Below are positions 11,813 through 30,468 of a stretch of DNA of 64,000 nt, one piece after another. Every line of letters starts with the position of its first letter. The first letter of the stretch is position 1. Source of the stretch: an uncultured Gemmatimonadota bacterium (GTDB lineage: Bacteria > Gemmatimonadota > Gemmatimonadetes > Gemmatimonadales > Gemmatimonadaceae); assembly GCA_902826615.1 (NCBI GenBank), contig CADEFN010000004.1:248001-312000 (forward strand), written 5' to 3'. The translations under genes and the position numbers were made by a program. A model generated the notes under the pieces. The model was not told the DNA's origin, did no database searches, and saw only the letters and a list, made by a program, of their open reading frames with translations.

Positions 11813-11908
11813 TCTGCGGTTCAACGAATAGGGGCTGGACTTTGATCCCGCAACTGCGAGGTGGGCGGAAGGGGCGATAGTTTTTCGGTACCCTCCACGC
11901 CCACATCC

Positions 11909-14900
11909 ATGATTCGGACTGCTTTCCGACTGCTCGCAGCGTCAAGCGCGCTCGCTTTGTCCCTTCCCGCCCAGCAGAACCGCCGCCCTGCGGCGCCCGC
12001 AGCCACGATGGCCCCTGCGGTGGCGGACTCCCTGTTTGCGAACCTCAGCTACCGGAACATCGGCCCGGCCAACATGTCGGGGCGGATGGCCGACGTCGAA
12101 GGGGTGCCAGGCGATCCGGCAATCATCTATGTGGGCTCGGCGTCGGGGGGTGTGTGGAAGTCGGTGAATGCCGGGACCACCTGGACGCCGATCTTCGACA
12201 AGCAGCCCGTCCAGTCCATCGGCGACCTGGCCCTCGACCCCACCAATCCCGAAGTGGTGTATGTCGGCACGGGCGAGGCCAACGTGCGCAACTCGGTGTC
12301 GTTCGGCAACGGGGTCTACAAGACCACAGACGGCGGCAAGACGTGGCGTCACCTGGGTCTGGCCGACACCCGCCACATCTCGCGCATCGTGGTCAACCCG
12401 CAGAACCCGAACAAGGTGTATGTCGCGGCCGTCGGGCACGCCTTCGGACCTAACGAGGAGCGCGGCGTCTTCATGAGCGAGGACGCCGGGGAGACATGGA
12501 AGAAGGTGCTCTACATCGACCCCGTCCACGGCGCCGCCGACCTCGACATCGATCCGGCAAATCCCAACCGGCTGTACGCCACGATGTGGTACTTCGACCG
12601 CAAGCAGTGGACGCATCGCTCGGGCGACGAAAACGGCGGTGTCTTCCGTTCCACGGATGGCGGCAAGACATGGACGAAGGCAACCAAGGGCCTTCCAAAG
12701 CTGATGGGGCGTATCGGCATCAAGGTGGCGCCGTCGTCGCCGAACGTGGTGTACATCGTGGCCGAGACGAAGGAGGGCTACGTCTTCAAGTCGACCGATC
12801 ATGGGGAGACATGGACGAAGACCAGCGACAACGCACACACACTGGGCCGCGGCTTTTATTACGCTGACCTGCGGGTACACCCCACCAACGAGAACACCCT
12901 CTACACGTTAGGCATGGCGTACATGACCTCGGTGGATGGGGGCCACACCTTTACCGGGATGACGGGCAACTTCCATGGCGATCATCAGACGATGTGGATC
13001 GACCCGAAGAACCCGAAGCGCATGTTCATGGGTGATGACGGCGGCATGAATGTGTCGCGTGACGCGGGCAAACAGTGGGAGTGGTTCCCCAACCTCCCCG
13101 TGGGTCAGTTCTACCAGCTGAGCTACGACATGCGCGAGCCATTCTTTCATGTGGCCGGTGGACTGCAGGACAACGGCGTGTGGACGGGCCCGACCCGTGT
13201 GCGTGGCTCGCAGATCCTCAGTGACGACTGGCGTTTCATCCAGAATGGCGACGGCTATTACGCCGTCTCGCACCCGGACAACCCGGACCACTTCCTCTCC
13301 GACTACCAGGCAGGCGGCATTCAGGCGACCAATCTGCAGACATACGAGCAGCGCGAGGCCAGCCCGCAGGTGAAGCGCATGGACGGCTACAGCGCCGACT
13401 CCAACAAGGTGCGTTTCAACTGGAACGCGCCGATCGTGAAGTCGCCGCACGACGGCAAGGTGGTGTATTTCGCCGGCAACATCGTGTACCGCTCGACCGA
13501 TTGGGGCAAATCGTGGACGGCCATCTCCCCCGAACTCTCGAAGAACGACAAGTCACGCCAGGGCGATGCGGGGGGGCCGATCCTCAAGGAGAACACGGTC
13601 GCCGAGTACTACGGGACTGTCTACTCGCTGGCGGAATCCCCGGCGCAGAAGGGCGTGATCTGGGTCGGGACCGACGATGGCAACGTTCAGGTGACGCAGG
13701 ACGACGGCAAGACATGGACCAATGTCACGCCTAACGTGAGTGGTGTTGGTGCGGATGCGGTGGTGTCGGGTGTCGAACCCTCGCGCACCGCAGCAGGAAC
13801 GGCCTACGTGACCTTCGAGCGGCGCATGATGGACGACTTCCGCCCCTACGTGTACAAAACCGCCGACTTCGGGCGGACGTGGTCCAACATCACCGGCAAC
13901 CTGCCGGCCAACCACTACGTGCAGGTGGTTCGCGAGGACCCGAAGAACGCGTCGCTCCTGTACGTCGGTACCGAACTCGGGCTGTATGCCTCGTGGACCG
14001 GAGGCAACGACTGGACGCGCCTGCATCTCGGCAATCTGCCGGCCGTGGCCGTGCACGAAGTCCTCGTGCATCCGCGCGATAACGACCTCGTGCTCGCCAC
14101 ACATGGGCGCGCCATCTGGGTGCTCGACGATGCGTCGCCGATTCAGCAGATGACGCCAGCCATCGCCTCGAAGAGCGGCCACCTCTTCCCCATGCGCGTG
14201 ACCACCCGATTCAACCAGGGCGACCAGAAGTGGAATTGGGGCAACCATCAGTATCGTGGCACCAACACCCCGTATGGCGCCCTGATCACCTACTGGTTAG
14301 GCAGGAAGCCAGTGGCCGACTCGCTGGTCAAGCTCGAGATCCTGCAGAACGGGACGGTGATCCGTACACTCAAACGCCCCTCGACGCAGAGTGGCTTCAA
14401 CCGTGTCACCTGGGACCTGCGCACCGACGCCCCAAAGGTCCTGAGCGACATGCCGGCCGACTCCGCCGATCCCGGCGACTGGCGTTCGCGTCCCATGGGA
14501 CCGCAGGTGCTTCCGGGCCAGTTTGCGGTGCGTCTCACCGTGGGTGGCGAAACCATGGAGCAGCCGCTGACGGTTCGTATCGACCCCACGTCCCCGGTGA
14601 CCCTCGCCGAACTGCGCGATCAGTATGAGCAGGCCACACGGCTCAACAGCGTGATCGCCAACCTCATCGACACCGAGCGTCAGCTGGTGGCGTTCAAGGG
14701 GCAAGTTGATGAACGACGTGCCACCGGCACGGAACTGCGTGGTCCGTCGGCGGCTGACATGTCCAAGGCCGCGGGTGAGGAACTGGTGCGGCTCGACTCG
14801 GTCCGGCTGCAGCTGACACGCCCGCGCTCTGAGCTGGTGCCCTTCTACTCCGAGGGACCACGTCCGGTGGAACGCGCGATGAGTCTCATGGGCTCCATCG

Positions 14901-15088
14901 ATAACGGCATCGTCGCGCCTATTGCGGCGCAACGCGAGTACCTCGGCGATGTGCGGCGCGATGCGCAGACCGTGATTGAGATGGTGGAGCGGCAGGTGGA
15001 GGCGACCGCGCGCCGGATGAACCCGTTGTTGCAGGCGCTGGGCCTTCCGGCGCTGGTGGCTCCGTCGAAGAAGCAGGCGGCGATGTAG
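11909..15088 (+). CDS. Secreted BNR/sortilin-like propeller protein (paralogue 1)
   Basis: A 1059-residue protein with a signal peptide (FRLLAASSALALSLPAQQ). It opens with YRNIGPANMSGRMADVEGVP and then carries many Asp-box/BNR repeats of the form S-x-D-x-G-x-T-W (STDGGKTW, SEDAGETW, STDHGETW, STDWGKSW). These build one or two large beta-propellers related to VPS10/sortilin and exo-sialidase-like folds. The last ~300 residues form a beta-sandwich and a helical tail. Databases often label such proteins glycosyl hydrolases, but no catalytic residues are evident and that activity should not be assumed. Two full-length paralogues occur at 21342 and 27277. The ATG at 11909 directly precedes the signal peptide; the extension to 11861 lacks a ribosome site. 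Heptamer repeats flank the gene on both sides. Confidence 0.85.
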   Translation: MIRTAFRLLAASSALALSLPAQQNRRPAAPAATMAPAVADSLFANLSYRNIGPANMSGRMADVEGVPGDPAIIYVGSASGGVWKSVNAGTTWTPIFDKQPVQSIGDLALDPTNPEVVYVGTGEANVRNSVSFGNGVYKTTDGGKTWRHLGLADTRHISRIVVNPQNPNKVYVAAVGHAFGPNEERGVFMSEDAGETWKKVLYIDPVHGAADLDIDPANPNRLYATMWYFDRKQWTHRSGDENGGVFRSTDGGKTWTKATKGLPKLMGRIGIKVAPSSPNVVYIVAETKEGYVFKSTDHGETWTKTSDNAHTLGRGFYYADLRVHPTNENTLYTLGMAYMTSVDGGHTFTGMTGNFHGDHQTMWIDPKNPKRMFMGDDGGMNVSRDAGKQWEWFPNLPVGQFYQLSYDMREPFFHVAGGLQDNGVWTGPTRVRGSQILSDDWRFIQNGDGYYAVSHPDNPDHFLSDYQAGGIQATNLQTYEQREASPQVKRMDGYSADSNKVRFNWNAPIVKSPHDGKVVYFAGNIVYRSTDWGKSWTAISPELSKNDKSRQGDAGGPILKENTVAEYYGTVYSLAESPAQKGVIWVGTDDGNVQVTQDDGKTWTNVTPNVSGVGADAVVSGVEPSRTAAGTAYVTFERRMMDDFRPYVYKTADFGRTWSNITGNLPANHYVQVVREDPKNASLLYVGTELGLYASWTGGNDWTRLHLGNLPAVAVHEVLVHPRDNDLVLATHGRAIWVLDDASPIQQMTPAIASKSGHLFPMRVTTRFNQGDQKWNWGNHQYRGTNTPYGALITYWLGRKPVADSLVKLEILQNGTVIRTLKRPSTQSGFNRVTWDLRTDAPKVLSDMPADSADPGDWRSRPMGPQVLPGQFAVRLTVGGETMEQPLTVRIDPTSPVTLAELRDQYEQATRLNSVIANLIDTERQLVAFKGQVDERRATGTELRGPSAADMSKAAGEELVRLDSVRLQLTRPRSELVPFYSEGPRPVERAMSLMGSIDNGIVAPIAAQREYLGDVRRDAQTVIEMVERQVEATARRMNPLLQALGLPALVAPSKKQAAM

Positions 15089-21341: not shown

Positions 21342-24300
21342 ATGTCAGCCTTCCTCCGCAGCGCGGCAACGACGTTCGGCCTTGCCCTCGTACTGTTCTC
21401 CATCAGCGCTGGCGCGCAGGCCGGCGCCCAGGTGGCAACGGAGTTCGACAAACTCCACTTCCGGTCGATTGGCCCGGCCACGATGTCGGGCCGGGTAGCC
21501 GACGTCGCGGTCTACGAACCCAACCCGGCGATCTACTACGTGGGCACGGCCCACGGTGGCCTGTGGAAGACCACGAGCAATGGGGCCACCTTCACTCCTC
21601 TCTTTCAGGATCAGGGGCTGATCTCGATCGGCGACGTGGCCGTGTCGCAGACCAACCCCGATCTGGTCTGGGTCGGGTCGGGCGAGTCGAACAACCGCCA
21701 GAGTACCTCGTGGGGCGGAGGACTCTACAAATCCACAGATGGCGGAAAGACCTTTGCGTTCATCGGACTGCCCAACTCACGCGCGATCAACCGGGTTGTC
21801 ATTCACCCGAATAACAGTGACGTCGTGCTGGTGGCGGCAACCGGGCCATTGTTCGGGCCCGGCGGGGATCGCGGTGTGTTCAAGACCACCGATGGCGGCA
21901 AGACGTGGAAGCAGGTGCTGAAGGTGGACGATGAGACGGGCGCCAACGACCTGGTGTACTCGCTCAGCGACCCCAACATCATGTACGCCTCGACCTATCA
22001 GCGGCGCCGCACAACGTGCTGCATGAATGGTGGCGGACCCGGGAGTGGCCTCTGGCGCTCGACCAACGGCGGCGAGACCTGGACGCGGATCAGCGGCAAC
22101 GGGTGGCCGGCGGGCCCGTTAGGCAGGATTGCGGTGGACGTGTTCCGCCAGAACTCGCAGGTGGTCTACGCCACGGTGGAGGGGCCTGGTGGCGGCTTTG
22201 GCGGCGGCGCTGGCGGAGCGGCGCCCGGGACACCCGTGCCGGCAGATCAGCCTCGTGTGCCGGCCATCACTGGCACCTACCGATCCGACGATGGTGGCGT
22301 GAACTGGCGCCGGGTGAGCGGCACGAATCCCCGCCCCATGTACTTCTCGCAGGTGCGCATCGACCCCCTGAATTCCGACAAGGTGTACATGGGTGGCGTG
22401 GGCATGCAGCTCTCCGTCAACGGTGGCCAGGCCTTCGAGACAGACGCCGCGCTCGTCACCCACGACGACGTCCACGCGATCTGGATCAATCCGAAAAACA
22501 CCGACCATGTCCTGACGGGCAATGACGGCGGGCTCGCGGTGTCGTACGACGCCAGCCGCACCTGGACCTTCATCCCCAACCTCCCGGTCGGGCTCTTCTA
22601 TCACGTCGGCTACGACATGGAGATGCCCTACAACGTCTGTGGCGGCATGCAGGACAACTACAACTGGTGCGGCCCCAGCGCCTCGCGCATGGGACGCGGC
22701 ATCATGAACTACGACTGGTTCCAGATCCTGGGCGGCGACGGCTTCGTGGCCATCCCCGACCTGCGCGACTCGAAGATCGTGTACACCGAATCGCAGGATG
22801 GCAACATCATCCGGCGCAACAAGGTGACGGGCGAGTCGCGGTCGATCCGCCCCAATCTGCAGAACGTCACCAATGCCACGCCGGGCGAAGCGTATCGCTT
22901 CCACTGGGATACCCCCCTGATGCTGTCGCCTAACGATCCGGGCGTGCTGCTGGCCGCCGCCAATCGTGTGTTCCGCTCGACGGACCGCGGCGACTCGTGG
23001 GAAGCGATCTCCCCGGACCTGACGAAAAACGAGTCGCGCGACTCCGTGGTGCTGATGGGAGTGAAGCTGTCGCAGGTGAACATCGCCAAGAATGACGGCA
23101 TCTCGCAGTGGCCCACGATTGTGGCGCTGGCCGAATCCCCCAAACAGCCTGGTCTCTACTACACCGGGACTGACGACGGCACGGTGAGCGTGTCGCGCGA
23201 CGGGGGCAAGTCATGGCAGAATATCACGAAGAACCTCCCGGGTTTCCCATCGGGGTACGCCTTTGTCTCGCGCATCGCGCCTTCGCGATTTGACGCCGGC
23301 ACCGTATATGTCACGGTCGATCACCACCGCGAGAATGACTACGAACCGTACGTGTGGGTGAGCACCGATTTCGGCGCCACCTTCCGCAGCATCACCAATG
23401 GCCTCAAGGGCGAAAACGCCCGCACCATCACCGAAGACACGCGCAATGCCGATGTCCTCTACCTCGGCACCGAAACGGGGATCTTCCTCTCGCTTGATCG
23501 TGGCGCGAGCTGGCGGCGACTCAAGGCCAATTTCCCGACCGTGCGCGTAGACGAGCTGACCATCCACCCGCGTGACAATGCCCTGCTCGTTGCCACACAT
23601 GGCCGAGCTCTGTGGATCCTCGATCATCTGGAACCGATCCAGGAGTACCGTGCCGCCGCGATGGCCGACGCGAAGTTGTACACACCCGGGCTGTCGCTGC
23701 AATGGAAGTCAAAGGACGATCGCAACGATGAGTTCTGGGGTCACCAGTTCTTCACCGGCGAAAATCCCCCGACGGAAAGTGTCATCCAGTTCCACCTCAA
23801 GTCGGCGCTGACTAACCCGATGTTGCGTTTCACGGACGCGGGGGGCGCAGTGGTGCGTGAACTCACCGTGCCGGCGAATCGCAATCAGGCCGGCATCCAG
23901 ACCATGTGCTGGGACCAGCGTGTCGCGCCCATCACGGCGATTGCCGGCCCGGCTGGCGGCGGACCTGGGGGCGGTGGTGGTGGCCAGGGAGGAGCGGGTG
24001 GTGTGCGGACGGTGCCGGGGATTCCCGAACCCTTGCCACCTGTCGGCTACCTCCCGGAGAACCCATGTGCTCCGCCCGCCGGACAGGGTGGCGGTGGCGG
24101 CGGCTTTGGCGGGTTTGGGGGAGGAAACCAGGGGCCCATGGTGGCTCCCGGTTCCTATACCGTTGCTTTGGTAGCGGACGGCAAGGTGCTCGATACCAAG
24201 CCGCTGCGGCTGGTCATGGATCCGCTGGTGCAGTTGACCGACCGCGCGCGATACAACGCCCTGCTCACCGATTTGCATGATGTCCAGCGCCGGGCGACCG

Positions 24301-24722
24301 ACGCCGCACGCCCCCTGGCCGCGCTCAACACGGAAATCGGTCGTGTGGCCGTCAAGGTTGATTCGAGTGCCGCACCAGCCAATGTGAAGGCCGACTGGGC
24401 CGCATTCCGGAAGGACTTCGACGCGGTGCGCGCAAAGTTTGGTGTTGGCATCCCGGTCGGCGGATTTGGCGGCGGCGGTGGCGGCGGTGGCGCCGCTGCC
24501 CAGGCCGCGCAGGCGGCCAACGTTCTTGGACGACTGGGCAACATCAAGGGCGCGATCATGGGTATCTGGGAGACTCCAAGCGAGGCCAGCGTACGTCAGG
24601 CCAACGACGCCAAGGCCGCTGTCAACGCCGCCGTACCAGAGATCGCACCGATCATCGCGCGGGCACGCGCGCTGAGTCAGGCCCTCTCAACACATGGCGT
24701 CACGCTGACCGTGCCACAGTAG
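21342..24722 (+). CDS. Secreted BNR/sortilin-like propeller protein (paralogue 2)
   Basis: A 1126-residue protein with a signal peptide (FGLALVLFSISAGAQA). It begins with FRSIGPATMSGRVADVAVY, close to the start of paralogue 1, and carries Asp-box repeats (STDGGKTF, TTDGGKTW, STNGGETW, STDRGDSW, SRDGGKSW). It differs by three Gly-rich linkers: one in the propeller (GGFGGGAGGAA), a long one near residues 865-930 and another near 1043-1055. A CxxC-like pair occurs in RRTTCCMN. The C-terminus is helical. Function unknown; a surface-displayed binding or processing propeller is inference. The divergent region to the M23 gene (21127-21341) has no other gene, and a strong terminator follows at 24764. 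Confidence 0.85.
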   Translation: MSAFLRSAATTFGLALVLFSISAGAQAGAQVATEFDKLHFRSIGPATMSGRVADVAVYEPNPAIYYVGTAHGGLWKTTSNGATFTPLFQDQGLISIGDVAVSQTNPDLVWVGSGESNNRQSTSWGGGLYKSTDGGKTFAFIGLPNSRAINRVVIHPNNSDVVLVAATGPLFGPGGDRGVFKTTDGGKTWKQVLKVDDETGANDLVYSLSDPNIMYASTYQRRRTTCCMNGGGPGSGLWRSTNGGETWTRISGNGWPAGPLGRIAVDVFRQNSQVVYATVEGPGGGFGGGAGGAAPGTPVPADQPRVPAITGTYRSDDGGVNWRRVSGTNPRPMYFSQVRIDPLNSDKVYMGGVGMQLSVNGGQAFETDAALVTHDDVHAIWINPKNTDHVLTGNDGGLAVSYDASRTWTFIPNLPVGLFYHVGYDMEMPYNVCGGMQDNYNWCGPSASRMGRGIMNYDWFQILGGDGFVAIPDLRDSKIVYTESQDGNIIRRNKVTGESRSIRPNLQNVTNATPGEAYRFHWDTPLMLSPNDPGVLLAAANRVFRSTDRGDSWEAISPDLTKNESRDSVVLMGVKLSQVNIAKNDGISQWPTIVALAESPKQPGLYYTGTDDGTVSVSRDGGKSWQNITKNLPGFPSGYAFVSRIAPSRFDAGTVYVTVDHHRENDYEPYVWVSTDFGATFRSITNGLKGENARTITEDTRNADVLYLGTETGIFLSLDRGASWRRLKANFPTVRVDELTIHPRDNALLVATHGRALWILDHLEPIQEYRAAAMADAKLYTPGLSLQWKSKDDRNDEFWGHQFFTGENPPTESVIQFHLKSALTNPMLRFTDAGGAVVRELTVPANRNQAGIQTMCWDQRVAPITAIAGPAGGGPGGGGGGQGGAGGVRTVPGIPEPLPPVGYLPENPCAPPAGQGGGGGGFGGFGGGNQGPMVAPGSYTVALVADGKVLDTKPLRLVMDPLVQLTDRARYNALLTDLHDVQRRATDAARPLAALNTEIGRVAVKVDSSAAPANVKADWAAFRKDFDAVRAKFGVGIPVGGFGGGGGGGGAAAQAAQAANVLGRLGNIKGAIMGIWETPSEASVRQANDAKAAVNAAVPEIAPIIARARALSQALSTHGVTLTVPQ

Positions 24723-24763
24723 CAGGGCAGCGCGGCTCGCCGGAACGCCGTAGCTGAGGTGAG

Positions 24764-24803
24764 AAAGGGGAGTGACTGGGCACAGACCAGTCACTCCCCT
24801 TTT
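24764..24803 (+). terminator. Rho-independent terminator after BNR paralogue 2
   Basis: A 16-bp perfect stem (24764-24779 with 24787-24802) around a 7-nt loop GCACAGA, followed by TTTT at 24800-24803. This is a textbook intrinsic terminator 42 bases after the stop codon. Because of its A-tract on the other arm it may act on both strands. It also shows that the upstream in-frame ATG at 24772 cannot be the start of the next gene. Confidence 0.9.
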
Positions 24804-24915
24804 CCATGCCGCCCACCCCGAACGAACACCCAATGTCCCGGCAGCAACACCGGTCATATCGTTTGAGGCGCCACGAGTTGGTCCGTGCCCCAACACTCCC
24901 GCCGCTCCGGACATC

Positions 24916-26028
24916 ATGTCCCTTGCTCGTTATGCAATCGACCCGGTTACCGGTTTCATTCCGGGGAACCCGCCGCTGGTGCGTCTGCCGGCCTACTTCG
25001 ACGCCTGGGAGGCCATCGCCACCGACCTCTCTGCCCTGATCAGGTCGCGCCGGTTACGTCCCGCCTTGGAGCAGCTCCCCCATCTGGACGCAGCCAGGCT
25101 GGCGTCGGACGCCGAACACGAACGCGCCTTTCTGGTCTTGTGTCACTTCGCCAACGCGTGGGTCTGGGGTGGAGATGAACCACATCTGCGTATCCCTGCT
25201 ACCGTCGCCGTACCGCTCTGCGCCCTGTCCGAAATTCTGGGGCGGCCGCCGATTGCGCACTACGCCTCGATGACGCTGCGCAACTGGCGACGTCTCGACC
25301 CGTCGGCGCCGTTGTCCGTGGACAACGCCCACACACAGATCGCATTTCTTGGTGGTGTGGACGAGGACTGGTTTTTCATTGCCTCCATGGGTGTGGAGCT
25401 CGCAGGGGCTCCCATGCTTCCGATCATTGAGAGCGGTCTTGAAGCCGCGGTGTCCGGCACCGACGACGAGCTGACGAGCCTGCTCGGTCGCTTCGCCGCA
25501 GGGCTCGAACCTGTCATCGTCGCCCTCGACCGTATTCGTGAGTGGTGTGACCCTGACATCTACTACAAACGGGCGCGTCCCTTCCTTGCCGGCTGGCCGG
25601 CACCCGGTGTGGTGTATGAGGGAGTCTGGGATGAGCCCCGTCGATACATCGGAGGGAGTGCGGCGCAGAGCTCGCTGCTGCAGTCCTTTGACGCTTTCCT
25701 GGGCGTGGCGCATCCCGAGGCACCGGCCGGCGCCTACCTCAAGGCCGTGCGCGCCTACATGCCAGTGCCGCATCGCGCCTTTCTCGACGAGGTGGAACGC
25801 ACGTCGCGAGTGCGCCAACGGGCCGCGAGCGGCACTCCAGCGTTGCGAGAGGCGTACAACGCCTGCCTGGACCACCTCGACACGTTCCGGGAACGCCACA
25901 TGAAGCTGGCTTATGACTACATCATCCGGCCATCGGGTGCGCCGAAGGACGCCACAGGCACCGGTGGCACATCGCTGACCGCATTTCTTCGCGGCGCGCA
26001 GCACTCCACCACGTCGTCGCGGCTATGA
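24916..26028 (+). CDS. Indoleamine 2,3-dioxygenase family protein
   Basis: A 370-residue heme dioxygenase. Family marks are GGSAAQSS (246-253) lining the heme pocket, the probable proximal heme ligand His328 in ERHMKLAYDYI, and the C-terminal GTGGTSLTAFL loop. It would open the indole ring of L-tryptophan (or a related indole) to N-formylkynurenine in the cytoplasm. The start is set at 24916; an upstream ATG at 24772 lies inside a terminator stem. The stop overlaps the kynureninase start by 4 bases (ATGA), so the two are translationally coupled and this fixes the pathway assignment. Bacteria more often use the unrelated-length TDO enzyme for this step, so an IDO-type enzyme here is notable. 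No formamidase lies nearby. Confidence 0.9.
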   Translation: MSLARYAIDPVTGFIPGNPPLVRLPAYFDAWEAIATDLSALIRSRRLRPALEQLPHLDAARLASDAEHERAFLVLCHFANAWVWGGDEPHLRIPATVAVPLCALSEILGRPPIAHYASMTLRNWRRLDPSAPLSVDNAHTQIAFLGGVDEDWFFIASMGVELAGAPMLPIIESGLEAAVSGTDDELTSLLGRFAAGLEPVIVALDRIREWCDPDIYYKRARPFLAGWPAPGVVYEGVWDEPRRYIGGSAAQSSLLQSFDAFLGVAHPEAPAGAYLKAVRAYMPVPHRAFLDEVERTSRVRQRAASGTPALREAYNACLDHLDTFRERHMKLAYDYIIRPSGAPKDATGTGGTSLTAFLRGAQHSTTSSRL

Positions 26029-27260
26029 CAACCCATCCGACACCGGCCGACCGTGACGCCACCGATGCGTTGCGTACCTTCCGCGACCGCTTTGTCCTGC
26101 CGGAGGGCGTGATTTATCTCGATGGCAACTCACTGGGCGCGCTGCCTGTGGCGACCGCAGGACGCGTGGCAGACCTGGTGAATGCGGAGTGGGGCCTGAG
26201 CCTGATCCGGAGCTGGAACGCGCATGACTGGATCGGCGCGCCACAACGTGTGGGTTCGAAGATCGCGCGCCTGATCGGTGCCCAGTCAGGCGAAGTGGTC
26301 GTGGCCGACTCGACATCGGTGAACTTGTACAAGCTGATCATGTCAGCGCTGCAGGCGCAGCCGGGGCGTCGCACCGTGTTGTCGGAGCCGGGCAACTTTC
26401 CGACCGACCTCTACATGGTGGAGTCGGCCATCGCGTCGTCAGGCGGCCAGCACCGGCTCTCCCTTGTACCGCGCGACCAGTTACTCAGCGCCATCGATGA
26501 CGATACGGCCCTCGTCCTCCTCACACACGTGCACTACAAGACGGCAGATGTGTGGGACATGGGTGCGGTGACCGCCGCGGCGCAGGAGCGCGGCGCCATG
26601 GTCCTGTGGGACCTCAGTCACAGCGCGGGTGCCATTCCGGTGGACCTCAACGGGTGCCACGCCGACCTGGCGGTGGGATGCGGATACAAGTTCCTCAACG
26701 GCGGGCCGGGTGCACCGGCTTTCCTCTACGTGGCGTCGCGTCACCAGTCGCGTTTGCAGACCCCACTCGGCGGCTGGATGGGACATAAGCGCCCCTTCGA
26801 CTTTGTCGACGGCTACGAGGCGGCACCGGGCATCGCGCGTTTCCTGTGCGGCACGCCACCGATGCTTTCGCTGATCGGGCTCGAGGTTGGGGTGGACCTG
26901 ATGCTCGAAGCCGATCGCGAGGCGGTAGCGACCAAGTCGCGCGCACTCGCGGCGTTATTCATGGCCGAGGTGAGCGCGCGCTGCACGCGCTTTGGTGTTG
27001 AGCTGGTGGGGCCGCCGCCGGGTGCACCCCGAGGGAGCCACGTCTCCTTCCGCCACCCCGAGGGATACGCCATCATGCAGGCGCTGATTGCCCGCGGGGT
27101 GATTGGAGATTTTCGTGCGCCCGACATCATGCGCTTCGGATTGACGCCGCTCTATCTCCGCTATGCCGATGTCTACGAGGCCGCACGTGTGATGGAAGAC
27201 GTGCTGGCCGCGGGAGCGTACCAGGCCGAGGAGTTCCGGGTACGCAAAGCGGTTACCTGA
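26025..27260 (+). CDS. kynU: Kynureninase
   Basis: A 411-residue PLP enzyme of fold type I. It has the family opening IYLDGNSLGALP, LTHVHYKTADVWDM, the PLP-phosphate region WDLSHSAGAIPVDL, and the Schiff-base Lys222 in GCGYKFLNGGPGAP, followed by GGWMGHKRPFDF. It hydrolyses L-kynurenine (or 3-hydroxykynurenine) to (hydroxy)anthranilate and alanine. Its ATG overlaps the dioxygenase stop by 4 bases, so the two genes form an operon for tryptophan breakdown. The intermediate formamidase (KynB-type) is not between them and must be elsewhere or replaced by spontaneous or other hydrolysis. The gene converges on BNR paralogue 3, with 16 bases between stop codons. Confidence 0.95.
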   Translation: MTTHPTPADRDATDALRTFRDRFVLPEGVIYLDGNSLGALPVATAGRVADLVNAEWGLSLIRSWNAHDWIGAPQRVGSKIARLIGAQSGEVVVADSTSVNLYKLIMSALQAQPGRRTVLSEPGNFPTDLYMVESAIASSGGQHRLSLVPRDQLLSAIDDDTALVLLTHVHYKTADVWDMGAVTAAAQERGAMVLWDLSHSAGAIPVDLNGCHADLAVGCGYKFLNGGPGAPAFLYVASRHQSRLQTPLGGWMGHKRPFDFVDGYEAAPGIARFLCGTPPMLSLIGLEVGVDLMLEADREAVATKSRALAALFMAEVSARCTRFGVELVGPPPGAPRGSHVSFRHPEGYAIMQALIARGVIGDFRAPDIMRFGLTPLYLRYADVYEAARVMEDVLAAGAYQAEEFRVRKAVT

Positions 27261-27276: not shown

Positions 27277-30200
27277 TTACATCACCGCCCTCGTCGGGAG
27301 TACGATCGCGCCAAGGCCAAGTCGACGCAGCAACTCATTGAAGGCTGCCACGTCGCGTTCGACAATCGTGCGAAGGCGCCCCGTCACCGGTGCGATCTCG
27401 CGGCCAAGGTCTGTGAAGCGCTGCGTGGCCGCGGGCGCAGGCCGCCCCTCGGGACCCCCGGCGATGTAGCCGTCAGTGCCAGTCACAAATCCGTAGAGCT
27501 CCACCAGCTGGTTGTCGAGTTTCCCGGCAAAGCGGATGGGGTCCTGCCCACTCTGGCTCTTCACCTGAGAGAAGTCCGTCTCTACTCCGCCGAGTTTGGC
27601 CGCAAGAGAATCAGCGGCCCCCCGCACCTCCCCGTCTCGGCCGATGCGCCCGGCCTGCTCCACTGCGCGTGTGGCCTGCTCGCGAATGGCGCGAATGGTC
27701 TCGAGACCGGCCTGGACCACATTGATCGAGTCGCGGATGGCGCTCGCCACCCGGTATTGCTCCTCGTATTCGGCCTGCGTGACACTCGTCAGGCGTGGAT
27801 CGGCGATCACTCGGAAGGTCTGCGACGTCGTCGCGCCATTTGCGATCAAACGCGCGGTGTACTGGCCGGGCGGGGCCTTCACACCCCCGGTGTATCCCCA
27901 GAGCACCTGTCCCTTGACCTGACGCGGCCCGGGATAGGTGAGGTCCCACACCAGACGATGCATGCCGGCCACTGTCTTGAGCGCCGGCTGCTGCCGCTCG
28001 CGCGACTTCGCGGTGTCACTGGTGAAGGTGCGCACAACACGTCCACCGGCATCCGTCAGGTCGAGGACGACCTCACCGGTGGCGGGGCTCCCCAGGACGT
28101 AGTGCAACAGTGCCCCGTTAGGCAGCTCGTCCGGGGCATTTTCCACTCCACCGGCACCACCACCGCCCACCTGCAGGCGATAGGCGTCCCGCGGCTTGTA
28201 CAGATGTGAGGCCGCCGCCCGTGTGACGCTTGCCGCCTGGTGCAACGGCGTGAGGTCGTCAAGAATCCAGAGTGACCGCCCCTGTGTGGCCACCACCAGA
28301 TCGTTGCGATGTACACGCAGGTCGGCCACCGGAGTGATCGGAAGGTTGAGCTGGAGTGATTGCCAGCGCTGCCCGCCATCAAAGGTGACGAAGAGCCCAT
28401 GCTCGGTGCCGGCATACGCCAGACCATCCTTGACGGGGTCTTCACGCACCGCACGCACGGGTGAGTTGGCGGGCAGGCCATCGATCACTTGCCGCCAGGT
28501 ACGGCCATAGTCTTCGGTGCGGAAGATGTACGGCTTGAAGTCGTCCATCCGGTACTTCTGCACGGCGAGCCAGGCCCGCCCGGGTTGATGCGCCGACAGA
28601 TCGATGTTCTCCACCGTGCCAAACGCTGGCATGCCGGGAGGGGTGATGTCCTGCCAGGTGCGCCCGCCGTCGCGGGTGATATGCACCTTGCCGTCGTCAC
28701 TCCCCGTCCAGAGCACGTTGCGGTCCTTTGGATCTTCGGCAAGGGCGAAGATGGTGTTGAAGATCTCGACGCCGGTGACATCGTTGTTGATTGGGCCACC
28801 AGCAAAGTCCTGCGTCGCTTTGTTGTTGGTGGTGAGGTCCGGGGAGATCTCGGTCCACGTCATCCCGCCATCGCTGGTGCGCAGCACGTGCTGCGCCCCG
28901 TGATAGACCACGTTGGGGTCGTGTGCCGATACCAGGATCGGCGCCACCCACTGAAAGCGATACTTCAGATTCTTCGCCGCCTGACCGAGCTGCAGCTGCG
29001 GATAGGCAATCATGTTGCGTCGCTCGTCGGCCTTGAGATCCCAGCGATTGATGGCACCGCCGTAGCAACCACCCCACAATACGTCAGGCCGGTCGGGGTG
29101 GAGGGCCACGGGCCCGGTTTCGCAGCCGGAGGCATACCGCCACTCATTGAGTGGGTGCAAAACGTTAGGCCCGTTCCAGGCCGGAATGCTGATACTCGTG
29201 TTGTCCTGCTGTGCCGAGTAGACGCGATACGGGAAGGCGTTGTCCACGGCCACATCGTAGAACTCGGCGGTGGGCTGCGCGTTCATCGAGGACCACGTCC
29301 GGCCACTGGTGAGGGAGACCACCGCCCCGCCGTCGTCGCCGAGCACCATGTAGCGCGAGTTGGCGGGATTGATCCAGAGATCATGTGTGTCGCCATGCGG
29401 GACACTGATCGTCGTGAAGGTCTTGCCACCATCCACGGATCGGTAGAGCGAGGTATTCAAGGCGTAGACGGTGTTCTCGTTCTGCGGATCGGCCTCGATG
29501 CGTGTGTAGTACCAGGCGCGCTGCCGCAGGTTGTTCTCGCTGTTGGTCCGCGTCCAGGTTTTTCCGGCGTCGTCGGAGCGGTAGACGCCGCCCTCCGGCT
29601 CTGCTTCGATGATGGCCCAGACCCGATCGGGATTGGCGGGACTTACGGTCACTCCGATCTTCCCCGTCAGCCCAGCGGGAAGTCCACCGCCAAGTTTCGT
29701 CCAGGTGTCACCACCGTCGGTGCTCTTGAAGACGCCCCCTTCGCGACTCCCCGAAATCATGCTCCATGGCTTTCGCTCCGCCCGCCACATGCCAGCGTAG
29801 AGAATCCGTGGATTCCGCGGATTCACCACGATGTCCGAAGCACCCGTGGAGTCATTGAGAAAAAGCACGCGATCCCAAGACTTGCCGCCATCCTTTGTGC
29901 GATAGACGCCCCGCTCACTGTTGCGACCGAAGGGGTGGCCTAACGCGGCCAGCCAGACCACGTCCGGATTGGTGGGGTGGATTGCCAAACGACGGATGGC
30001 ACCTGACTCCGGGAGCCCGACGAAGGTCCAGGTGACGCCGGCGTCGGTGGACCTCCACACACCACGCCCCTGCGAGGAATTGCCGCGAATATCCGCCGAC
30101 CCCGTGCCCACATAGATGACGTTCGGGTCAGAGTCTGCGACGTCGATGGCGCCAATGGATCCCCCAAAGAAGCCATCGGAGATGTTGACCCACTTGGTGC

Positions 30201-30468
30201 CGGCATCATCGCTTTTCCAGACCCCGCCACCGGTGCTCCCCATGTAGTAGAGGTGTGGATCCGCAGCGACCCCCGTGACGGCCGTCGATCGGCCGCCGCG
30301 GAAGGGACCGATCATGCGATACTTGAGTCCGGCGTAGAGTGTGGTGTCGACGGCAGCCGCGGTGCGAGCGGGCGCGGGGGCCGGACGGGTGGACTGTGCC
30401 CCGGCATTGGCGACGAGGAGAAGTGCACCTGCCAGTGAGGCGGCGCCCGGTAGAGCGAGGGACGTCAT
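27277..30468 (-). CDS. Secreted BNR/sortilin-like propeller protein (paralogue 3)
   Basis: A 1063-residue protein with a signal peptide (SLAGALLLVANAGAQS) and the family opening YRMIGPFRGGRSTAVTGVA. Asp-box repeats include SDDAGTKW, STDAGVTW, TKDGGKSW, STDGGDTW, SVDGGKTF, TSDGGMTW and TRDGGRTW, enough for two propellers. The C-terminal ~250 residues contain a Gly-rich linker (GGGGAGGVEN), a beta-sandwich and a helical tail as in paralogues 1 and 2. It is the most diverged of the three. It lies 34 bases downstream of a small SnoaL-like gene and may be the last gene of an operon with the nucleoside phosphorylase. No catalytic residues were recognised, so the hydrolase label often given to this family is not supported from sequence alone. 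Confidence 0.85.
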   Translation of the reverse strand: MTSLALPGAASLAGALLLVANAGAQSTRPAPAPARTAAAVDTTLYAGLKYRMIGPFRGGRSTAVTGVAADPHLYYMGSTGGGVWKSDDAGTKWVNISDGFFGGSIGAIDVADSDPNVIYVGTGSADIRGNSSQGRGVWRSTDAGVTWTFVGLPESGAIRRLAIHPTNPDVVWLAALGHPFGRNSERGVYRTKDGGKSWDRVLFLNDSTGASDIVVNPRNPRILYAGMWRAERKPWSMISGSREGGVFKSTDGGDTWTKLGGGLPAGLTGKIGVTVSPANPDRVWAIIEAEPEGGVYRSDDAGKTWTRTNSENNLRQRAWYYTRIEADPQNENTVYALNTSLYRSVDGGKTFTTISVPHGDTHDLWINPANSRYMVLGDDGGAVVSLTSGRTWSSMNAQPTAEFYDVAVDNAFPYRVYSAQQDNTSISIPAWNGPNVLHPLNEWRYASGCETGPVALHPDRPDVLWGGCYGGAINRWDLKADERRNMIAYPQLQLGQAAKNLKYRFQWVAPILVSAHDPNVVYHGAQHVLRTSDGGMTWTEISPDLTTNNKATQDFAGGPINNDVTGVEIFNTIFALAEDPKDRNVLWTGSDDGKVHITRDGGRTWQDITPPGMPAFGTVENIDLSAHQPGRAWLAVQKYRMDDFKPYIFRTEDYGRTWRQVIDGLPANSPVRAVREDPVKDGLAYAGTEHGLFVTFDGGQRWQSLQLNLPITPVADLRVHRNDLVVATQGRSLWILDDLTPLHQAASVTRAAASHLYKPRDAYRLQVGGGGAGGVENAPDELPNGALLHYVLGSPATGEVVLDLTDAGGRVVRTFTSDTAKSRERQQPALKTVAGMHRLVWDLTYPGPRQVKGQVLWGYTGGVKAPPGQYTARLIANGATTSQTFRVIADPRLTSVTQAEYEEQYRVASAIRDSINVVQAGLETIRAIREQATRAVEQAGRIGRDGEVRGAADSLAAKLGGVETDFSQVKSQSGQDPIRFAGKLDNQLVELYGFVTGTDGYIAGGPEGRPAPAATQRFTDLGREIAPVTGRLRTIVERDVAAFNELLRRLGLGAIVLPTRAVM

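Follow-up and report, generated by a model that had tools for sequence, protein, structure and literature searches.

The IDO and kynureninase (KynU) genes of the window, a 64,000-nucleotide stretch of DNA from an uncultured Gemmatimonadaceae bacterium, most likely encode the first and third steps of an ordinary kynurenine route that degrades tryptophan to anthranilate; we put the probability of this reading at about 0.87. The second step would be carried out by a KynB-type formamidase encoded elsewhere in the genome, and IDO would have replaced TDO', a divergent form of the dioxygenase TDO. IDO would convert L-tryptophan to N-formylkynurenine, the unlinked KynB-type enzyme would take off the formyl group to give kynurenine, and KynU would convert kynurenine to anthranilate and alanine. 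The anthranilate would probably then be degraded as its CoA ester through a separate operon on contig C2. Gene content, synteny and the pattern of exclusion were observed, whereas the enzymatic steps, the sequence of gains and losses and the degradative role are inferred. Classical bacterial kyn operons encode TDO, KynB and KynU and lead to anthranilate. The proposed route shares these three reactions and this product, but in the window IDO stands for TDO, kynB lies on another contig, and TDO is missing from the genome.

Table 1. Positions of the IDO-KynU pair and neighboring features in the window.
Feature	Position	Strand	Remark
Hairpin then short T run, probable terminator of upstream gene	24763..24803	.	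fold of 24755-24810
IDO, 370 aa	24916..26028	+	predicted Trp to N-formylkynurenine
KynU kynureninase, 411 aa	26025..27260	+	predicted kynurenine to anthranilate and alanine
Sortilin/BNR-repeat protein, upstream flank, outside pathway	21342..24722	+	PF15902, 112.2 bits
Sortilin/BNR-repeat protein, convergent downstream flank, outside pathway	27277..30468	-	PF15902, 124.7 bits

The earlier note had described IDO and kynureninase genes that overlap by ATGA, with IDO in the place usually held by TDO and no formamidase between or beside them. This description was borne out. The stop codon of IDO and the start codon of KynU share ATGA at 26025-26028, both proteins score above their family cut-offs, and neither TDO nor a formamidase gene adjoins the pair, which has sortilin/BNR-repeat genes on either side. 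Upstream of the pair, the 24755-24810 segment folds with -35.1 kcal/mol (z = -6.65), and none of 200 shuffled sequences was equally stable. The hairpin in this segment was not called by a simple terminator scan, and a simple promoter scan upstream of IDO-KynU found no sigma-70-like promoter. The hairpin suggests a separate two-gene IDO-KynU transcript that starts within 24804-24915. An alternative IDO start in the same frame, GTG at 24772, falls inside this strong hairpin. Three of five homologues begin at the column of ATG 24916; the remaining two are longer at this end by 1 and 7 residues. ATG 24916 is therefore correct or nearly so.

The IDO protein, an animal-type dioxygenase, matched Pfam PF01231 with 351.2 bits against a cut-off of 26, over residues 3-367 of 370 and profile positions 2-411 of 412. 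Structures of human IDO1 matched it over the full length (about 1e-59). In the alignment, the catalytic and substrate-pocket residues are kept as H328, F153, R221, S157, S248 and T352, which we take to correspond to H346 (the proximal heme histidine), F163, R231, S167, S263 and T379 of human IDO1, respectively. All 29 rows of the IDO alignment agree at the positions of human F163, R231, H346 and T379. The S167 position varies: 15 rows have His, 12 have Ser, as the window protein does, and 2 have other residues. At the place of human Phe226 the window IDO has Tyr, as do 26 of the 29 bacterial rows. The genome of the window, G000 (98 contigs totalling 5.9 Mb; completeness 99.1%), has one copy of the gene, whose product is predicted to form N-formylkynurenine from L-tryptophan in a heme-dependent reaction.

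In the IDO tree, the Gemmatimonadaceae rows form a single clade (100/100) in which the window IDO branches first. The IDO of genome G019, whose gene also adjoins KynU, is 56% identical to it. The parts of PMC4217691 available to us, citing Yuasa et al. 2011, describe three IDO branches, of which one alone degrades tryptophan efficiently; this branch holds the mammalian and fungal enzymes and those of Gemmatimonas aurantiaca and Streptomyces scabiei. The Gemmatimonas aurantiaca IDO (Yuasa et al. 2011, as reported in the available parts of PMC4217691 and PMC4191572) is from the same bacterial family as the window IDO and belongs to the same IDO clade.

These relationships bear on the proposal, made in the earlier note, that the substrate might not be plain tryptophan. 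The true substrate would then be another indole such as D-tryptophan, hydroxytryptophan or tryptamine, and the pair would serve a role other than tryptophan catabolism. IDO enzymes have lower specificity than TDO, according to the portion of PMC4217691 at hand. The separation of IDO-KynU from KynB, and the combination of IDO with a complete TDO pathway in the distant genome G037, also fit such a role. Against it, IDO is the sole tryptophan dioxygenase found, and stands beside KynU, in all nine IDO genomes of the family, and the Gemmatimonas aurantiaca enzyme is an efficient tryptophan degrader in the same partial source (PMC4217691). With the catalytic residues kept, TDO absent, and KynB and anthranilate-degradation genes present, the proposal found no support, and we consider another indole an improbable substrate.

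KynU scored 287.3 bits with the equivalog model TIGR01814 (cut-off 246.4). The 416-residue kynureninase 1qz9 matched its residues 2-411 at 6e-128, far ahead of the 465-residue kynureninases 7s3v (1.5e-42) and 3e9k (4.6e-37); a bacterial-type, anthranilate-making KynU is thus the likely reading. The PLP region reads GYKFLNGGPG in the window protein and TYKYLNGGPG in 1qz9, and the K of this YK-LNGGPG region is presumably the cofactor (PLP) lysine.

A search of G000 for kynB and kynA yielded one full-length KynB-type gene and no TDO. The KynB-type gene encodes 207 amino acids at G000:C8:59266-59877, on another contig than IDO-KynU. Its protein matched TIGR03035 with 191 bits over positions 2-206 of 206. 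The curated cut-off of 223.05 bits is not reached, so we call the protein KynB-type only. This cut-off is passed in only 3 of the 298 genomes sampled from the phylum, and the KynB of the complete kyn cluster in G037 scored 196.5 bits. Among solved structures, the C8 protein is matched best by the bacterial kynurenine formamidases 4cz1, 4co9, 4cob and 4cog. Aligned to 4cz1, it has HVGTHAD (HxxxHxD), HH and ILEN all present; the HxxxHxD motif and the later HH and E positions are what we take to be the metal-binding sites of KynB. G000 encodes four Cyclase-family proteins including this one, and the other three (L001-L003), at 33-62 bits with TIGR03035, were rejected as formamidases. As one of two options, the earlier note had suggested that another hydrolase performs this step. 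The candidate is instead a KynB-type gene of the same genome, unlinked to IDO-KynU.

The C8 KynB gene adjoins the bacillithiol gene BshB1. In G029, a genome of the same genus without IDO, the gene order is BshB1, TDO', KynB, ABC-type genes and two more genes, which we name from sequence as cysteine desulfurase-like and MnmA-like. G000 has this order minus TDO', with the genes on either side conserved, and only 19 bases separate the BshB1 stop codon (L007 9904) from the KynB start codon (L007 9884). The TDO' gene of G029 (L114 5839-6600) encodes a divergent TDO, with 154 bits for PF03301 and 205.1 bits for TIGR03036 against a cut-off of 390.7. BshB1 scored above its own cut-off (231.9 vs. 182.5). 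We fetched KynB loci from nine IDO genomes, two TDO genomes and seven hand-picked others among the 103 genomes of the family. The order BshB1-TDO'-KynB was found in all seven TDO'-bearing loci, which were chosen by hand and not at random (G029, G249, G218, G269, G184, G073 and G129). BshB1-KynB without TDO' was found in 9/9 IDO genomes and in both canonical-TDO genomes. In one IDO genome, G039, a metallo-beta-lactamase-fold gene (L107 6425-7423) occupies the TDO' slot between KynB and BshB1.

No TDO was found in G000 (99% complete) by the family search, which detects TDO in 187 of the 298 phylum genomes, or with a same-genus TDO' query, a search with no positive control of its own. The formamidase gene is outside the IDO operon because KynB sits at the BshB1-[TDO']-KynB locus, which is probably an older one. 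TDO' would have gone from this locus in the IDO-bearing genomes, and IDO would have taken over its job.

The distribution of the dioxygenases is consistent with such a replacement. IDO was found in 10 of the 298 genomes, nine of them in the window's family and the tenth, G037, in another family. KynU adjoins IDO in all nine family genomes. None of the nine had a TDO match, compared with 76 of the other 94 genomes of the family (Fisher P = 1.9e-6, uncorrected for relatedness and thus an overstatement of independence). KynB is found in each of the nine, at 155-192 bits, but never close to IDO-KynU: the two single-contig genomes have more than 2 Mb between them, and the others have KynB on a different contig. 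G000 lacks a second, complete operon encoding TDO and formamidase, which would give the pair another role. Such an operon is present in distant G037, where a complete kynU-TDO-kynB cluster (C3:122259-126268) accompanies an IDO gene (C1:70036-71139) that is not near KynU. G037 is the single exception to IDO/TDO exclusion among the 10 IDO genomes; it also shows that clustering of all three classical genes does occur within this bacterial order.

A true KynU, above the cut-off, occurs in 16 of the 103 family genomes, and each of the 16 has exactly one dioxygenase type: IDO in nine, TDO in four and TDO' in three. Neither IDO nor TDO was found in eighteen family genomes, and KynU exceeded the cut-off in none of these. 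TDO adjoins KynU in G033, G040, G063 and G090. In G218, G269 and G184 TDO' is beside KynB and no dioxygenase was seen beside KynU; for G184 and G218 a nearby contig end cuts off one side of the KynU neighborhood. KynU of G269 is next to a fumarase-family gene, where G079 and others have KynU-IDO-fumarase. KynB matches in G033 and G063 (loci L119 and L121), where TDO is beside KynU, were only weak (best E about 1e-15).

We also scanned named genomes for IDO and covered the best 80 of 119 loci. This IDO clade accounted for nine of these, one of which ends inside IDO; KynU adjoins IDO in the other 8/8. Five of the eight appear to duplicate sampled genomes (G268, G290, G248, G055 and G296) and three are additional. 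The remaining 71 loci, from Deltaproteobacteria, cyanobacteria, Actinomarina, SAR86 and others, had no KynU at E 1e-15 within the available stretch, which was short for many.

The same loci offer a candidate for a different second enzyme. In G079 (L021 3517-4317) and G055 (L020 9091-9879), and also at the named-genome locus L134, apparently the same as G055, KynU and an anthraniloyl-CoA-type hydroxylase gene are separated by an arginase/agmatinase-family gene. This gene may encode a second formamidase, and it is the best candidate should the formamidase in fact be an unrecognized hydrolase, with another job for KynB. Some KynB-less route would also be needed in G033 and G063, if their TDO-KynU pathway works. 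However, the arginase-family gene is in the operon of only two of the nine family IDO genomes and is absent beside IDO-KynU in the window and the six others, and its protein scored above the agmatinase cut-off (189.1 vs. 174.3). KynB is in all nine, and in the TDO'-bearing relatives it is next to the tryptophan dioxygenase gene. We regard an unrecognized hydrolase as quite unlikely and favor the KynB-type protein for step 2.

The KynU tree, in which 9 of 18 inner branches are weak, unites KynU of all 12 IDO- or TDO'-bearing genomes in a single clade (100/100) that excludes the TDO-linked KynU. Within it, KynU of G218, a TDO' genome, clusters with those of the IDO-using G268 and G296 (100/98). 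The position of the G218 protein among IDO-linked KynU indicates that the dioxygenase changes while the KynU lineage stays. IDO and TDO' have probably been exchanged more than once, in a direction that the tree leaves unproved. More broadly, we lean slightly toward the view that within this one family IDO, TDO and TDO', which are unrelated or distantly related, repeatedly swap around a lasting KynU and KynB, each arrival of IDO being matched by clean loss of TDO' from BshB1-TDO'-KynB, which would leave the formamidase orphaned. Two gene clusters hinted at a chromosomal site common to IDO-KynU of the window and TDO-KynU of G033, but an in-place swap there was rejected: against 39 kb of G033, the window matched only in KynU, in sortilin/BNR-family paralogues and in one 70-residue match. 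The window frames 11846-15085, 21342-24722 and 27277-30468, of about 1,060-1,130 aa, all resemble one sortilin/BNR-type protein of G033.

The fate of anthranilate may be read from contig C2. A flavoprotein there belongs by its score (1218.9, cut-off 1078) to the salicylyl-CoA 5-hydroxylase/oxidoreductase family, which we take to include 2-aminobenzoyl-CoA monooxygenase/reductase. The genes after it encode an enoyl-CoA hydratase-family protein, an acyl-CoA dehydrogenase-like protein and a CoA ligase. The best solved relative of the ligase is the anthranilate-CoA ligase 4wv3 (305 bits), and its TIGR02262 score of 373.9 is just below the cut-off of 375.25. A gene of the flavoprotein's family lies downstream of IDO-KynU in G019, G039, G055 and G079, which ties this family to the kynurenine pathway. 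In G019 the pair is followed by the anthraniloyl-CoA-type hydroxylase gene, and on the far side of IDO there is a fumarase-family gene. In the window, by contrast, only sortilin-like genes flank the pair, and a different contig carries the hydroxylase operon.

A biosynthetic role, in which the pair feeds NAD synthesis via quinolinate, would agree with the kynurenine pathway to quinolinate that the accessible part of PMC10581226 reads for some freshwater and wastewater Gemmatimonadota genomes. In G000, however, no 3-HAO was found over the cut-off, a partial match on C25 reaching 22.3 bits (cut-off 25). NadA (quinolinate synthase) is strong at 387.9 bits, which makes the presence of the aspartate route likely. 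The presence of NadA and the lack of a 3-HAO over the cut-off make a degradative role likelier than an NAD-making one, and we hold the latter to be very improbable.

Mutually exclusive occurrence of TDO and IDO in bacteria is already known (PMC4191572, in the sections available), and likewise all nine family IDO genomes have one and not the other. Compared with the published pattern, the exclusion is legible here at one locus, where TDO' is missing from its place flanked by BshB1 and KynB, and the true-KynU genomes carry one or another of three dioxygenase types. What is new is how the genes are arranged and that the TDO' slot has been emptied; we found no description of an IDO-kynU operon in the literature searched, whose coverage was partial. 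What looked like a pathway gap thus becomes a small natural experiment, in which close relatives combine one kynureninase lineage with either IDO or TDO', seemingly for an identical step. The selection of IDO over TDO could be approached by gene exchange between strains. Pathways read from a single operon may look broken when one gene stays at an older locus.

G000 also encodes a divergent kynureninase-like PLP protein (L126 7369-8547, equal to G000:C5:153368-154546). At 145.6 bits it is below the TIGR01814 cut-off of 246.4, and we excluded it from the counts of true KynU. Most family genomes show such below-cut-off matches. Many of these genomes encode TDO' and KynB without a true KynU, and the divergent protein may serve them as kynureninase.
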